A stretch of 44,603 nt of DNA from Thermoleophilaceae bacterium (lineage in GTDB: Bacteria; Actinomycetota; Thermoleophilia; Solirubrobacterales; Thermoleophilaceae). The DNA lies in assembly GCA_030447905.1 (NCBI GenBank), contig JAUJNZ010000008.1, forward strand, positions 1-44,603, given 5' to 3'. The position numbers were made by a program, and so were the translations under genes. The notes under the pieces are model-generated. The model did no database searches. It saw only the letters and a list, made by a program, of their open reading frames with translations, and was not told the DNA's origin. Positions 1 through 31,738 of this stretch are shown piece after piece. Numbering within the stretch: the stretch's first letter is position 1; the number at the start of each line of letters is the position of its first letter.

Positions 1-66
1 CGGTCTTCAAAACCGGCAGGGCGGAGCAGCCCTCCGCTTGGATGGTTCGATTCCATCGCCGCTCCG
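1..66 (+). tRNA. selC: tRNA-Sec (UCA), 3' part; gene truncated by the window edge
   Basis: The window opens in the anticodon stem. The loop CTTCAAA at 5-11 gives anticodon TCA (7-9), which reads UGA, flanked by a CGGT/ACCG stem. A long GC-rich variable arm follows (about 14-40), then a 5-bp T stem (41-45 with 53-57) around TTCGATT. An 8-nt acceptor 3' strand GCCGCTCC (58-65) and discriminator G66 complete it; no CCA is encoded. The long arm, UCA anticodon and 8-nt acceptor strand together are diagnostic of selenocysteine tRNA. The 5' half lies outside the window. No selA, selB or selD is visible here. Confidence 0.9.
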
Positions 67-3761: not shown

Positions 3762-4697
3762 ATGGCGAAGGACGACGATCTCAAGCTCACTCTCGGCGAC
3801 CTCGATGAGCGCTTCACGGACCCGAACGCTGCCGCCGCCTACCTAGAGTCGATCCGCTGGGCGGACGGCGTCGTCTGCCCGAAGTGCGGCGAGTCCGAGC
3901 GCGAGCCCTACCGGCTCAAGAATCAGAAGCGCCGCCTCTGGAAGTGCCGGGCTTGCCGCAAGCAGTTCACGGTCACGGTCGGGACGATCTTCGAGTCGAG
4001 CCATATCCCGCTCAACAAGTGGCTGCTCGCCTTCTACCTGCTCTGCGCCTCCAAGAAGGGCATGAGCGCCCACCAGCTCCATCGGATGCTCGGGGTGACC
4101 TACAAGACCGCGTGGTTCATGTTCCACCGCGTGCGCGAGGCCATGAGCGATCCCGCCTTCTCGGCCAAGCTCTCGGGCGTGGTCGAAGTTGACGAGACCT
4201 ACGTGGGCGGCAAGCGCAAGGGCAAGGTAGGCCGGCCGGCGCAGGGGGACCCTAAGAAGGTGCCAGTCGTCGCCCTGGTCGAGCGCGGTGGACGCGTCCG
4301 ATCCTCGCACGTCGCCAACGTCACCGCTCCCGTCCTACAGAGCGCGATCCGGGAGAACGTGGATCGCAAGGCGCGGATCATGACCGACCAGCTCGGCTCC
4401 TATCGCGGGCTCGACCAGGACTTCGCGGCCCATGAGGTCGTCAATCACTCCGAGGGCGAGTACGTGCGGGGCGACGCGCATACGAACACCGCCGAGGGGT
4501 ACTTCGCCAACCTCAAGCGCGGGATCAACGGGAGCTATCACCACGTATCCCAGCGCCACCTTCACCGCTACCTGAGCGAGTTCGACTTCCGCTGGAACGC
4601 TCGGGAGGCGAGCGATAGCGCCCGGACGGTGGCGGCGCTCCGCGAGGCCGAGGGCAAGCGGCTCAAGTACCGCGAAAGGCCTACTAGGAGGGTCTAG
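3762..4697 (+). CDS. IS1595-family (ISXO2-like) DDE transposase
   Basis: A 311-residue protein with the full IS1595 layout. An N-terminal zinc ribbon has C39, C42, C62 and C65 (CPKC and CRAC). A helix-turn-helix-like segment follows (MSAHQLHRMLGVTYKTAW), then the catalytic core with D144 in VDETYVGGKRKGKVGR. D209 lies in IMTDQLGSYRGL, and N242/E245 in AHTNTAEGYFANLKRG. The C-terminal HRYLSEFDFRWN block is also family-typical. The frame is intact, so the element may still be active. The stop codon lies inside the stem of a structured repeat (4694-4710). I could not identify terminal inverted repeats or a target duplication. Confidence 0.93.
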   Translation: MAKDDDLKLTLGDLDERFTDPNAAAAYLESIRWADGVVCPKCGESEREPYRLKNQKRRLWKCRACRKQFTVTVGTIFESSHIPLNKWLLAFYLLCASKKGMSAHQLHRMLGVTYKTAWFMFHRVREAMSDPAFSAKLSGVVEVDETYVGGKRKGKVGRPAQGDPKKVPVVALVERGGRVRSSHVANVTAPVLQSAIRENVDRKARIMTDQLGSYRGLDQDFAAHEVVNHSEGEYVRGDAHTNTAEGYFANLKRGINGSYHHVSQRHLHRYLSEFDFRWNAREASDSARTVAALREAEGKRLKYRERPTRRV

Positions 4698-4787
4698 CGA
4701 AACTCGCTAGCCCAGTCGTGGTGCGGGATTGCGGGGACGGGTGCATGGCGGTTACCCCAATTCTCGGGTCGTTTTACCCCACGGCTG
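4685..4787 (+). repeat. Structured repeat, copy A
   Basis: Starts TAGGAGGG and contains the perfect 7-bp hairpin CTAGCGA/TCGCTAG (4694-4700 and 4704-4710) with loop AAC. It goes on to GCGGGATTGC and to a CGGGTCGTTTTACCCC tail. Copy B, about 320 bp downstream, matches it over most of its length with paired base changes in the first stem. Here the repeat overlaps the transposase stop codon. Confidence 0.75.
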
Positions 4788-4894
4788 TCGGGTAGAGGGG
4801 TCATCGGGTGGGCGCGGGGTTCGACCATGCCTGGGCCTCCGCTTGACTCCCTTCTCGCTATCATCCCGTCACGTTCGACTCACAAGGGAGGACC

Positions 4895-5008
4895 ATGGGT
4901 TTACTGGGCAAGGCTCTGGGCAAGGGCAAAAACAAGGCCAACGCGCTCTCCAGGAAGAAGGGCGGCAAGGCGACGAGCGGGCGCCAGAAGAGTAAGCCGA
5001 AGCGTTAG
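4895..5008 (+). CDS. 37-residue Lys/Arg-rich basic protein
   Basis: It starts at ATG after a very strong ribosome binding site (AAGGGAGG, 5 bp spacing). It reads MGLLGKALGKGKNKANALSR followed by KKGGKATSGRQKSKPKR. Lys and Arg make up about 40% of residues, so it would be strongly basic, possibly nucleic-acid binding (inference). It sits between the two copies of the structured repeat, directly after the IS1595-type transposase, and its stop codon is the first base triplet of copy B. IS1595-family elements are known to carry passenger genes, so this may be one. I do not recognise a family. Confidence 0.5.
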   Translation: MGLLGKALGKGKNKANALSRKKGGKATSGRQKSKPKR

Positions 5009-5108
5009 GAGGGATTGGCGAAACTCGCCAGCCCGCTCCTAGAGCGGGATTGCAGGGACGGTCAGTTCACGGCTACCCCAACTTTCGGGTCGTTTTATCC
5101 CTCGGCTG
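5006..5108 (+). repeat. Structured repeat, copy B
   Basis: Starts with the TAG stop of the basic mini-protein in TAGGAGGGATTGGCGAAAC. Stem 1 is TGGCGA/TCGCCA (5016-5021 and 5025-5030) with loop AAC. Stem 2 is CCCGCTC/GAGCGGG (5032-5038 and 5042-5048) with loop CTA. The tail TTTCGGGTCGTTTTATCCC matches copy A. Stem 1 differs from copy A by a compensated A-T to G-C change, which suggests that the folded RNA or DNA is what matters. Confidence 0.75.
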
Positions 5109-5179
5109 AGAGCGCCATCTGAACGAGATAAGGCTCCCGGATCGGGAAGGCGACATTGCCGTCCCACTTGAGCAGGTCT

Positions 5180-5359
5180 CCGTTCTACCGGGGCCGTGCC
5201 GCAGTCGAGCGCGAGTTCGGCAGGCTCAAGAATGAGTGGGCGCTACTGCCGCTCCGCGTACGCGGTATCGAGCGGGTCCGGCTCCACGCCGACTTGACGA
5301 TACTCGCCAAGCTGGCGTGCGCCCTTGCGAGGGCGCGAGCCGTCCCGCTGGCTGCGTAA
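5180..5359 (+). pseudogene. DDE transposase, C-terminal fragment
   Basis: Only about the last 60 residues are left: FYRGRAAVEREFGRLKNEWA then LLPLRVRGIERVRLHADLTI and a helical end. The R-x-x-VE-x-x-FGRLK motif is the region around the last catalytic Glu in IS4/IS5/IS1182-type transposases, and the rest is the usual C-terminal helix. The upstream domains are missing, so it is a relic of a second insertion sequence unrelated to the IS1595-type element. Confidence 0.7.
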
Positions 5360-5520
5360 CGCCGCATTCCTATAGCTGCGCCGGGAGCAATAGGCCCCTG
5401 CGCGCTTCTGCCCAACCTTCCACCGGGCCGCGCGTTTTACCTCATGAGGCGATAGGAAGGGCTTGCGCTACCGCACGAGCGCGCATGCCGCCGTCTCGCG
5501 GAACGGCCGGGTATGGAAGC

Positions 5521-5557
5521 TCGGCCGTTTCGCTAGCCGTTTCGCCGATCCCTCCTA
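5521..5557 (-). repeat. Third, shorter copy of the 3'-end repeat (copy C)
   Basis: On the minus strand, the stop codon of the next gene is the start of TAGGAGGGATCGGCGAAAC, which matches copy B at 18 of 19 positions. It is followed by a 12-nt near-tandem repeat (GGCGAAACGGCT, AGCGAAACGGCC). The later part of copies A and B is not obvious here. Confidence 0.6.
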
Positions 5558-6364
5558 GCCCCTAGCTAGCAGCTTGTGCATGTCGCGGGCAAGCTGCACG
5601 AACTGGTGGGTCTGCTCCGCGGACCACTCTTGACCCTCGTTTAGCAGCCGTAGCCACAGCTCAGGAAGTGGAACACCCGAGCCGTCAGTCGTTCCGGTCA
5701 CTAGCGGAGCGACAGCACCACGATCCTTCTGGCCGCGTTCAGGAGCAGGCGACTCGGGGGCGTCTGCCCCGTTCGCGGGCGGTTGCACGAGACGGTGTCG
5801 TCCGTGCTCAAAGAACCCAGCTTGCTCGGCTGACCGCTGGAACGCCTGGCGAGCCTTGTCGGTTTGCTTCGAACTCACGCCGAACTCGGCCATCTGCTGC
5901 TCGAGTCCCTCGTCGGGAGGCAAAGAATACCCCTTCCAACTCTCGAAGACCTTCGCGAAGAGAGGCACGGCGAGAAACGCATCCACGCGCGCAGCCGCGC
6001 GCGACTGAGGGTCGACGATCCGTCGTCCAAGGGGAGTCAGCGCGATGTTGCCGCGGCTGACGCTCACTAACCCGAACGTTCGGGCAGTAGCAACCTTCCC
6101 ACGGAACGCGCCGCTGCGAGGGTTGCTGTCGAGGCCACCCGCAAGCTGCTCCGGGCTGGTGGAGCCACCCCACGTCTCGTGAAGCTCCTGTGCGATTTGC
6201 TCGGCATCCTTGAGTGAGCCGTAGGGGAACGCGATGGTCGAGCGCTCGTAACGCCCCTTCTCTGGCGCTTGGTCAGTTGCTTCTACGGGGTCCGTCTCGG
6301 GCGGGGTGTCGTCGCCCTGGGCAGCCTCATCGGCGTACTCGTCCTCTAGGGCCGGTGTGCTCAT
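5555..6364 (-). CDS. Hypothetical protein with a winged-helix-like central region
   Basis: About 269 residues from the ATG that begins MSTPALEDEY. An acidic, disordered N-terminus (about 40 residues) leads to YERSTIAFPYGSLKDAEQIA and ELHETWGGSTSPEQLAG. It continues with GKVATARTFGLVSVSRGNIA and LTPLGRRIVDP. This looks like a winged helix in which a sequence-reading helix precedes a strand hairpin (inference). The C-terminus has a Pro-rich linker and a final helix ending HKLLARG. The gene ends in copy C of the structured repeat. The context is mobile DNA. No function is assigned. Confidence 0.7.
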   Translation of the reverse strand: MSTPALEDEYADEAAQGDDTPPETDPVEATDQAPEKGRYERSTIAFPYGSLKDAEQIAQELHETWGGSTSPEQLAGGLDSNPRSGAFRGKVATARTFGLVSVSRGNIALTPLGRRIVDPQSRAAARVDAFLAVPLFAKVFESWKGYSLPPDEGLEQQMAEFGVSSKQTDKARQAFQRSAEQAGFFEHGRHRLVQPPANGADAPESPAPERGQKDRGAVAPLVTGTTDGSGVPLPELWLRLLNEGQEWSAEQTHQFVQLARDMHKLLARG

Positions 6365-29510: not shown

Positions 29511-31157
29511 ATGCAGACGCCTCGCCCCTTTCCCAAGCGGTCGCCGTTCCGGCGCGACGTTGCCGCGCGGCCCGTGGGCACGATCCACGTCGTCGATCCG
29601 AGCCCGCTCAACTGGCTCTACATCACCTACAACACCGTCGAGGAGCTGGTCCGCGTCAACCCCGAGGGCAAGATCCGCCCGGCCGCGATGCGACGCTACC
29701 GGTGGGAGGACGACCGCACACTCAAGGTCGACGTGCGCCGGGGCGAGCGCTTCCCCGACGGCGAGCCGGTGACCGCCGCCACTGAAGCGGGCCTTCGACG
29801 AGCAGGGTCGCTGGGTCGCGCCGCACCCGCCGGGAACCCACTTCAACATCGACGAACGGGCGACCTGCGAGGTGGCGGGCGAGCACACCTTCCGGATCCG
29901 CCTGCCCGAGCCCGACGGGCTCGTGCTCGGCAAGCTGCGTGCCATGCACATCATGAGCACGCGCTTCTGGGAGGAGATCGGGTTCGGCTACGCCCGCGAC
30001 GGCAGCGGTGAGGGACACTGGTGAGTGATCGACGCCCCGGGCCCGTGGGGCACCGGTCCCTTCCGCCTCGCTGACGGGCGCTCCTCGCTCGACGTCGAGC
30101 GGGCGGTGATCAACCGCGATCCGTTCGCATGTACCTGCTGCCGACCGAGGACCGCACGCCGCGGGTGCGCCTCGTGGCCAACACCGGCTACTGGGACCGC
30201 CGGCGGGGACCGCGCCTTGAGCAGGTCGTCTTCCGCAACGACGTCTCGTCCCCTCGCGCGCTCGAGCTCGTGTGCGAGACCGAGGGCGAGGTCGACATGG
30301 TCACCGAGGTCCCGCCTGCGCAGGCCGCGCGGGTCGAGCGATCAGAGCACGCGCGGCTCGTGGCGGTCGACTCGGTCCAGGTCGTCGCGGGCGTGATAGA
30401 CCGCGCTGCCGGGGGACTGCCGCTCGCCGACCGCCGGGCGCGTCAGGCGCTCAACCTCGCCGTCGACCGCGATGCGCTCGTCCGTGACGCGGCATTCGGG
30501 CGCGCCCGTCCGCTCGCGGGGCTCACCCCGCCCACGCCGCTCACCTTCCTGCACAGGGCTCGGTCGCGACTGCGACCGTACCCGCACGACCCGCGCCTCG
30601 CGGCCGAGCTGTGGCGGGCGGCCGGAGGCGAGGGAGCCCGACCGCTGCGCGTGGCGGGCCCCGAGCACGTCGACCGGGTGGTCCAGAAGGTCGCCGCCGA
30701 TATCCGGGCCGCCCTCGGTATAGAGGTGGAGGCCGAGCTTCTCGCAGCCGACGAGCTCCCCGACGCCCGACGCCGCCTGATCGAAAAGGTCGTTCCCCAC
30801 GAGTGGGACGTCCTGATCCAGCACCAGGGCGTCCAGTCCGCGGACGCGCCGCCGCTCGAGCTGCACCGCGCCTTTGTCGGGCTGACCGGCGAGCATCGTG
30901 CCGGCCCCGCGGTGCCCGAGTTCGAGACCCTGTACGCCGACCTCCCCCGGCACACGTCTCAGCTCGGATTGGTGAAGGCCGCAAACCGCATCGACCGCTT
31001 CGTCCGGCGTGAGGCGCTCGCGCTGTTCCTCTACGCCCCGCAGGCTCTCTACGCGGTCAACCGGCACGTCGACTTCACGCCCTACCGCACCACCTTCGAG
31101 CTCGCCGAGTGCGAGGTGGGGGAGGGGCACTGGTCGCGGCGCCATGTCGGGGGCTGA
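29511..31157 (+). pseudogene. Family 5 solute-binding protein, two frameshifts and an in-frame TGA
   Basis: The order of blocks matches the SBP_bac_5 family (peptide/nickel-type ABC transporter binding protein). Block 1 is GTIHVVDPSPLNWLYITYNT, VEELVRVNPEGKIRP and RRGERFPDGEPVTAAT. After a one-base change near 29780 come LKRAFDEQGRWVAPHPPGTH and GLVLGKLRAMHIMSTRFWEE. At GSGEGHW a TGA follows (30022-30024), then VIDAPGPWGTGPFRLADG. After a second one-base change near 30128 come LLPTEDRTPRVRLVANTGYW and the rest to the stop. No signal peptide is visible. The gene could be a pseudogene, an error-rich read, or in part a selenoprotein. Confidence 0.7.
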
Positions 31158-31253: not shown

Positions 31254-31738
31254 ATGAGCGCCGGGCGCCCTACTCCGGACCGCGAGTCGAGGTCGAGCGT
31301 CCTCCACGTCTACGCGGGCGAGGTGCGCGCCTCGCTTGGCACCAACGCCTCGGCCTTCGCATACTCGGTGATGATCACCGCCACCTACGGCGTGCTCACC
31401 ACCATCCTCGGAGCGAGCACCGTGCTCGAGACCTTCACGTTCCTGGTCGGTGCGGCGACGGGCTTCACGCTGACCGAGGCCGTGGCCTCGCGCGGCTTCC
31501 GCGTGCGAATGCGCGGGGAGCGGCCGGACGTCGTCGTCCTCGGCAGCGCCATCAGCTACCCCTCCACGCTCCTCGCCGTCGGCGTGGCTGCGCTGGCGGG
31601 CGAGGTGCTCGGCACCGGCGTGGCGTGGCCCGCCGGCTCGTTCCTCGCGACCACGTCTTCCTGCTGGTCGGCGCCGTCGAGCTCCTTCTGGGCAGGCGTG
31701 CGGCGAGGCTGAGAGGGGTCGAGGACCAGCCGGGCTAG
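31254..31738 (+). pseudogene. Small membrane protein, one-base frameshift near the C-terminus
   Basis: Starts at ATG and reads SSVLHVYAGEVRASLGTNAS, then helices SVMITATYGVLTTILGAST and TFLVGAATGFTLTEAVASRG. They are followed by VVLGSAISYPSTLLAVGVAA and AWPAGSFLATT. In the annotated frame the tail is SCWSAPSSSFWAGVRRG, but the adjacent frame gives FLLVGAVELLLGRRAARLRG and stops at 31738. Addition of one base near 31650 restores a final helix. About four membrane helices. The function is unknown. The stop overlaps the lipid kinase stop on the other strand. Confidence 0.6.

Follow-up and report, generated by a model that had tools for sequence, protein, structure and literature searches.

The window analyzed here is a 44,603-nucleotide stretch of DNA from a Thermoleophilaceae bacterium (contig JAUJNZ010000008.1). 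One of its genes has the family-5 (SBP_bac_5) solute-binding protein (SBP) fold and is interrupted by an in-frame TGA, which a preliminary description of the sequence had raised as a possible selenocysteine (Sec) codon. The features of this gene, the Sec machinery genes found elsewhere in the same genome and the two nearest relatives with a sense codon are listed in Table 1.

Table 1. Position of the putative selenoprotein gene, its elements and associated genes (positions refer to the window, unless a contig C or locus L is named)
Feature	Position	Strand	Remark
SBP_bac_5-fold gene, predicted selenoprotein	29511..31157	+	terminal TGA 31155-31157; related to L034, L035 and others
Frame breaks in the window gene	near 29783-29789 and near 30126	+	reading-frame changes in the translation
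In-frame UGA, predicted to be read as Sec	30022..30024	+	residue 169 in relative L034; stop at this site in 73/73 loci
Signature GSGEGHWUxIDAPGPWGTGPF around the Sec codon	30001..30060	+	typical of the SBP-like selenoprotein family
SECIS-like hairpin common to relatives (candidate)	30037..30056	+	30037-30044 pairs with 30048-30051 and 30053-30056; loop GUG 30045-30047; bulged A 30052
selA	C1:12204-13523		window's genome
selB	C1, from 12105 down		window's genome
selD	C4:3601-4515		window's genome
Complete tRNA-Sec (L011)	C24:158581-158672		window's genome
L185 SBP_bac_5-type gene	4323-5891		beside a chemoreceptor gene
L186 SBP_bac_5-type gene	4483-6056	-	beside a chemoreceptor gene; split over two reading frames

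The TGA is located in frame within the family-5 SBP gene, as had been described. The sequences upstream (GSGEGHW) and downstream (VIDAPGPWGTGPFRL) are both of the family-5 type, and the C-terminal part of the window gene alone scores 74.5 bits against PF00496, for a cut-off of 32.4. Intact relatives score 121.8 and 127.8 bits, and further relatives 128–145. Both frameshifts noted earlier in the same reading frame were found again. They look like assembly errors and not decay, because intact relatives are free of such breaks, because pN/pS is low (0.32 and 0.42 for the three in-frame pieces of the window gene compared with relatives L034 and L035), and because the following gene (31254-31735) likewise shifts frame. 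A single TGA is the only interruption in relatives L034 (546 aa) and L102 (537 aa, counted from the start adopted). The frame change in the following gene suggests a general indel error rate in the assembly. An unrelated SBP gene of the same genome has no stop within its match.

The stop codon is conserved among the relatives. A five-row alignment was used to scan the GTDB species genomes, together with the patterns [AV]IDAPGPW and FGY..G.GE, both of which can match whether or not a stop is present; 135 stretches matched, and 73 loci were confirmed. When these homologues are aligned, the site is a stop in all 73 loci (62 TGA and 11 TAG), with no Trp, Ser, Arg or other sense codon in any of them. 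Four of the loci are the relatives retrieved in a separate search of 151 related genomes, and some genomes contribute two loci. Isolate and finished genomes are among the sources. The copies placed on the tree belong to at least five phyla (Actinomycetota, Bacillota, Pseudomonadota, Thermomicrobiota and Dormibacterota), and further carriers are single metagenome-assembled genomes (MAGs) titled Isosphaera and Chloroflexia. Except for the one stop, 60 of the 73 loci are open across 480–590 codons; the remaining ones are frame-broken or truncated at contig ends, and L077 was excluded from this count. A second TGA occurs in the MAG copy L149, at a position where the others encode Trp.

The search of the 151 related genomes found the gene in five, including the window's own, and each best match contains one internal TGA; two extra stop-free rows are fragments, in another frame, of broken copies. 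When 396 Actinomycetota genomes were drawn separately, 24 of them, the window's own again included, contained the gene. Two of the 27 loci in this draw are the window itself, and 24 of the other 25 have TGA at the site; the 25th was missed by the motif search and is listed with one TGA and one TAA. Many of these loci are probably the same genes as among the 73. As a control, the other SBP matches were free of stops in the matched stretch in Bacillota (34/34) and Pseudomonadota (17/17), 51 of 51 altogether, although most of these matches start downstream of the Sec region.

No orthologue with Cys at the exact Sec column was found among the 73 loci from the GTDB scan, nor in 396 Actinomycetota genomes (E <= 1e-40), 299 Bacillota genomes or 398 Pseudomonadota genomes (both E <= 1e-25). 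The nearest relatives with a sense codon are L185 and L186, two secreted-type SBP_bac_5 proteins of Pseudomonadota (164 bits, E 4e-48, and 107 bits, respectively). In their motif ATCPNLAEPG, the residue aligned with Sec is a Pro and the one immediately preceding it a Cys, according to MAFFT for both proteins and to hhalign for L185. An alignment shift of one residue would make this Cys the counterpart of Sec.

The type of stop codon follows the tRNA. A tRNA-Sec (RF01852) was found in all 24 carrier genomes inspected, which were picked by hand, with one gene in each. In all 24 its ARAGORN-predicted anticodon matches the codon in the gene (nine CTA/TAG and 15 TCA/TGA pairs); ARAGORN labels the CTA tRNA-Sec as ‘Pyl’. 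The 11 TAG genes are all from Geodermatophilaceae (Blastococcus, Geodermatophilus and Modestobacter), and a MAG of this same family (L062) has a TGA gene together with a TCA anticodon. When 61 proteins were placed on a maximum-likelihood tree, the codon site being masked as X, TAG required two changes, and well-supported branches forced these two. Modestobacter sp. DSM 44400 has one TAG copy in each TAG group (L067 and L076), the long branch of L076 being due to its out-of-frame C-terminus. The terminal stop is visible in 48 TGA-type copies of more than 430 codons: it is TGA in 28, TAG in 13 and TAA in seven. Of the 11 TAG-type genes, 10 terminate at TGA and one at TAG. Neither TGA nor TAG is globally reassigned, in the case of TGA because it also terminates those 28 copies.

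A search of the window's genome for selA, selB and selD found all three, outside the window (Table 1). Among the carrier genomes, selA scores above the cut-off in 43 of 50 and is found in 44 of 50 at E <= 0.001, the six misses all being MAGs; above the same cut-off it is present in 45 of the 151 window-related genomes, carriers counted. Two carriers from the window's genus (G001 and G003, 74% and 87% complete) gave no selA match. Based on tblastn, selB or selA and selB together lie downstream of the gene in 23 of the 73 loci, with selB in 17 alphaproteobacterial loci and selA plus selB in six actinobacterial ones. The gap between the gene and the first sel gene is below 100 bases in 21 of these 23 loci, 364 bases in L099 and 1.2 kb in L063. 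Profiles confirmed the assignment for TIGR00475 in L067, L082 and L083, and for TIGR00474 in L067. This linkage suggests that in several lineages the protein is a main reason for keeping the Sec machinery. On a plasmid of Methylobacterium radiotolerans (L172; NZ_CP090580.1:274181-283611), selB as annotated by NCBI lies about 90 bases past the match. No CDS is listed there over the selenoprotein, and two locus tags are skipped between an OhrR-type regulator and selB. The gap looks as if the selenoprotein had been annotated as a broken gene; the PLSDB table omits pseudogenes.

A SECIS-like hairpin shared by the relatives follows the codon. Its sequence in the window is CCGGGCCC-GTG-GGGC(A)CCGG, with the loop 20 nt downstream of the TGA. 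The preliminary description had suggested another stem, GCCCC/GGGGC (30034-38/30047-51), and had remarked that its loop lies very near the TGA; it begins just 14–15 nt after it. This stem exists and is the favored fold of the window alone, with a pair probability of 0.96 in 54 window bases, versus 0.04 for the shared hairpin. It is not, however, the structure shared by the relatives, and of the 73 aligned rows only three (the window, L035 and L060) have the GCC codon that it requires. The energies in the window are -14.1 kcal/mol for the shared hairpin, -15.5 with its outer helix and -20.4 for the competing 54-base fold. The case for the hairpin depends on the relatives, since in the window alone the stem described earlier wins.

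Bacterial SECIS elements are defined by a loop of 3–9 nt, a stem of 4–16 bp, a G in loop position 1 or 2, a distance of 16–37 nt from the codon and an MFE <= -7.5 (PMC13188914, legend of Fig. 2A). Such an element was found in 60 of the 62 distinct sequences, with several sub-windows considered per sequence and the best one taken; in the other two, the first G is at the third loop position. With the outer helix included, 91.3% of the pair cells in the 62 sequences are standard pairs, compared with 58.6% for the best slid version. Double changes occur in 18 cells, versus 7.6 in shuffles, and none of 500 shuffles reached this number. No excess over the shuffles was seen in the number of pairs with double changes (289/500 shuffles) or in pair types (500/500), and sliding the partners by -3 columns resulted in 20 double-change cells, as many as in the true register.

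The compensation can be followed in individual pairs. At columns 18-33, A-U replaces G-C in five low-GC Bacillota rows; at columns 12-39, U-A replaces C-G in five Bacillota rows and L082; and at columns 21-29, G-C replaces C-G in seven Geodermatophilaceae rows. Columns 18-33 are unpaired in 29 of the 62 rows and columns 20-30 in 16, and the stem register of the Methylobacterium copies is shifted by one. The hairpin energy does not differ significantly from that of synonymous recodings in 24 genes (z from -2.7 to +0.8), and RNAalifold retained three pairs on the whole set. The hairpin is thus consistent with Sec insertion and partly covarying, and it is not the main proof of Sec.

These observations can be set against other explanations of the stop. 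If the gene were a decaying or misread one, the TGA would be accidental, as the two frame breaks of the window copy and its frame-shifted neighbor might suggest. An accidental TGA was rejected given that the stop occupies exactly the same codon in all 73 loci, isolates and finished genomes among them; the 60 otherwise open copies and the pN/pS of 0.32–0.42 likewise speak against a pseudogene or sequencing error, the probability of which is negligible. It is hardly more probable that translation ends at the stop and that the downstream part is made by reinitiation. A GTG directly follows the stop in 36 of the 73 loci, but in another 36 the next codon is GTC, GCG, GTA, ATA or GCC, and in one it is ATG. 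Reinitiation would also leave aside that the stop type follows the tRNA-Sec anticodon and that the predicted fold includes the sequence on either side of the stop. The commonest leak at UGA is readthrough by Trp-tRNA, and a near-invariant Trp codon precedes the stop in 72 of the 73 loci. Still, a reassignment of UGA to Trp, or readthrough with an ordinary amino acid, is just as improbable as reinitiation, given the TGA that terminates 28 of the 48 long TGA-type copies and the TAG of Geodermatophilaceae, which fits the CTA anticodon of their tRNA-Sec.

Selenocysteine at the TGA of the SBP-fold gene is very likely, and what had been put forward as a possibility gains from the stop in 73 of 73 loci, the codon–anticodon match in 24 of 24 genomes, and the presence of selA, selB, selD and tRNA-Sec in the genome. 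The recoding, the Sec machinery and the family-5 fold are all strongly supported by the sequence comparisons. SelB and Sec-tRNA would decode UGA, or UAG in Geodermatophilaceae, as Sec, and the hairpin about 20 nt downstream would guide this decoding.

The structure of relative L034 was predicted with AlphaFold2 from 42 sequences, with Sec entered as Cys (pLDDT 91.1, pTM 0.90). Comparison by Foldseek/VIA-align gives a family-5 SBP fold throughout, with 1uqw as the closest solved structure (Z 33.1, 2.9 Å, 461 residues). Structures of the NikA/NikZ type reach Z scores of about 29–31, within a family-5 range of about 28–33. Generic SBP matches mostly skip the Sec segment, at about profile positions 130–205. 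Invariant in the 42 proteins are Sec169, three His (103, 144 and 167) and five Trp (32, 62, 99, 168 and 177), and His449 is conserved in 41 of them. From its place directly before GTGPF, the Sec, in a family-specific loop, probably faces the ligand cleft together with the invariant His and Trp residues. The peak 12-residue hydropathy of the first 40 residues is at most 1.29 in the 42 proteins, compared with 2.5 and 2.3 in the two secreted relatives, in agreement with the earlier remark that a signal peptide is lacking. The protein is probably cytosolic, because no hydrophobic N-terminal stretch is present. A complete family-5 fold of the oligopeptide/nickel type would thus be made without a signal peptide and remain in the cytosol, where the Sec may act as a redox or peroxide-reducing nucleophile. 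Among the 42 proteins, no invariant Cys besides the Sec site was found that could resolve a selenenyl intermediate. Five of them (L059, L062, L063, L067 and L073) end in ...GNAC, and this Cys could be a partner of the Sec.

The neighboring genes differ between lineages. On the M. radiotolerans plasmid a regulator gene precedes the predicted selenoprotein gene, and among solved structures its product is closest to OhrR, an organic-hydroperoxide repressor (2pfb, E 3e-34). Five Methylobacterium loci have homologues of this regulator, 83–90% identical, no more than about 300 bases upstream of the gene. The QLCFALY region is visible in the homologues displayed, and its Cys is presumably the sensing residue. 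A Mn-catalase gene adjoins the gene in four loci: L034 and L078, both from the window's order, and two near-identical Bacillus loci. Copies from Rubrobacter are preceded by a LarA-like isomerase gene and followed by an HbpS-like gene, each profile-confirmed in one locus. DUF3231 genes adjoin three Bacillota copies (L069, L087 and L080). A permease gene (PF00528) is located about 2.2 kb upstream in L087, with another gene in between, and ABC ATPase genes are present in the flanks of L075, L091 and L098; no permease or ATPase gene directly adjoining the gene was found among the neighbors scanned. The permease and ATPase genes farther off make a connection to a transporter conceivable. The window itself contains no selA, selB, Mn-catalase or HbpS-like gene. 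Each of the OhrR, Mn-catalase, HbpS-like, LarA-like and DUF3231 genes is confined to some lineages, and therefore none of them fixes the function.

In some lineages, the nature of the neighbors (OhrR and Mn-catalase) suggests a hydroperoxide or redox chemistry. Such a role for the Sec is tentatively the most likely, ahead of metal or ligand binding. In the latter case the same selenoprotein would be a cytosolic carrier, buffer or sensor, in which the Sec is a soft anchor in the cleft for a metal or ligand (nickel, mercury, an organometal, or a seleno or thio compound); this role is possible, if somewhat doubtful. It would agree with the weak NCBIfam matches of the five long copies scanned, among which NikA-type models rank first in four copies and GsiB in the fifth, and with the invariant His 103, 144 and 167 and His 449 of 41 of the 42 proteins. 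The LarA-like gene of Rubrobacter encodes a nickel-pincer-nucleotide hydroxyacid isomerase (L047:4053-5759; NF052592), whose cluster extends over nine loci, and metal binding has been proposed for the Sec of certain Sao and UXX-star selenoproteins (PMC13188914). On the other hand, the OhrR and Mn-catalase neighbors indicate peroxide stress, and the published Sao models NF040727 and NF040735 are unmatched in the five long copies scanned. Returning to the redox reading, its widest form would be a widespread cytosolic SBP-fold selenoenzyme that acts on organic hydroperoxides under OhrR control, has no Cys form and maintains the Sec machinery in aerobic Methylobacterium, Rubrobacter, Geodermatophilaceae and Bacillaceae, with UGA and UAG switched at least twice in step with the tRNA-Sec. 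As a whole, this picture is speculative and rather unlikely.

The comparison with known systems points to a putative selenoprotein family that is missing from the published catalogue. Table 1 of a 2026 review (PMC13188914) comprises 119 prokaryotic selenoprotein families or subfamilies, with no entry for a family-5 SBP among them. No report of an SBP-like selenoprotein was recognized in the open literature searched; subscription papers could contain one. None is named in the available portions of PMC9312934 and PMC5029168, and the family is absent from the new-family table of the deep-Sep paper (PMC12013277), in the part available. In the five long copies scanned, no NCBIfam model reached its cut-off.

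Substrate-binding-type proteins with a predicted Sec are likewise found in SaoB and SaoX, the ABC substrate-binding subunits of the SAO system (NF040727 and NF040735). Their Sec motifs are CUxxT and UxP (PMC13188914, Table 1), whereas the family of the window has GHWUxxD, and its five long copies match neither model. The family-5 extracellular SBPs (NikA, GsiB/YliB, DppA and OppA) share the Pfam family PF00496 and the full fold; the window's family differs from them by the absence of a signal-like N-terminus, by the Sec loop before GTGPF and by the linkage to sel genes in 23 of 73 loci. The secreted SBPs L185 and L186 differ by a signal-like N-terminus and the absence of the stop, while L185 shares the C-terminal HWS. 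UAG-encoded selenoproteins have been described in Geodermatophilaceae, namely FDH, a UGSC-motif protein and AhpC (PMC5330540, citing Mukai 2016); the tRNA-Sec(CUA)/UAG recoding and the bacterial family are the same as here, and the proteins are different, no SBP being named among them in the available part of that paper. The UGSC motif is absent here, the Sec being followed by x[IVL]D.

Families like this SBP-fold selenoprotein may be passed over by catalogues, because no Cys orthologue exists among the 73 loci and the family is absent from the list. According to the accessible text of the deep-Sep paper, all known selenoproteins now appear to have Cys homologues, and its search relies on that (PMC12013277). 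If the reading as a hydroperoxide selenoenzyme is true, the dependence of catalogue methods on such homologues would explain why the family has gone unnoticed. Genes unlisted or apparently broken in soil actinobacteria, Bacillaceae and Methylobacterium become a testable selenoprotein, and the family is a possible reason for the retention of selA and selB by aerobes. UGA and UAG coding of Sec within one gene family also provides a natural paired comparison.

The window had further been said to carry tRNA-Sec. Only the 3' 65 bases are present, at the contig start, and neither ARAGORN nor Rfam detected a tRNA in the window; the complete gene lies on contig C24 (Table 1). Window positions 1-65 are identical to the 3' part of the complete tRNA-Sec, with weaker similarity to about base 287. 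A second tRNA-Sec-like gene (L015, C24:93827-93913) has the 3' part in common and a different 5' part. The duplicated 3' ends look like those left by elements integrating at the tRNA-Sec gene. An IS1595 (ISXO2-like) transposase gene is located at positions 3762-4697 of the window, a few kb from the tRNA-Sec fragment.
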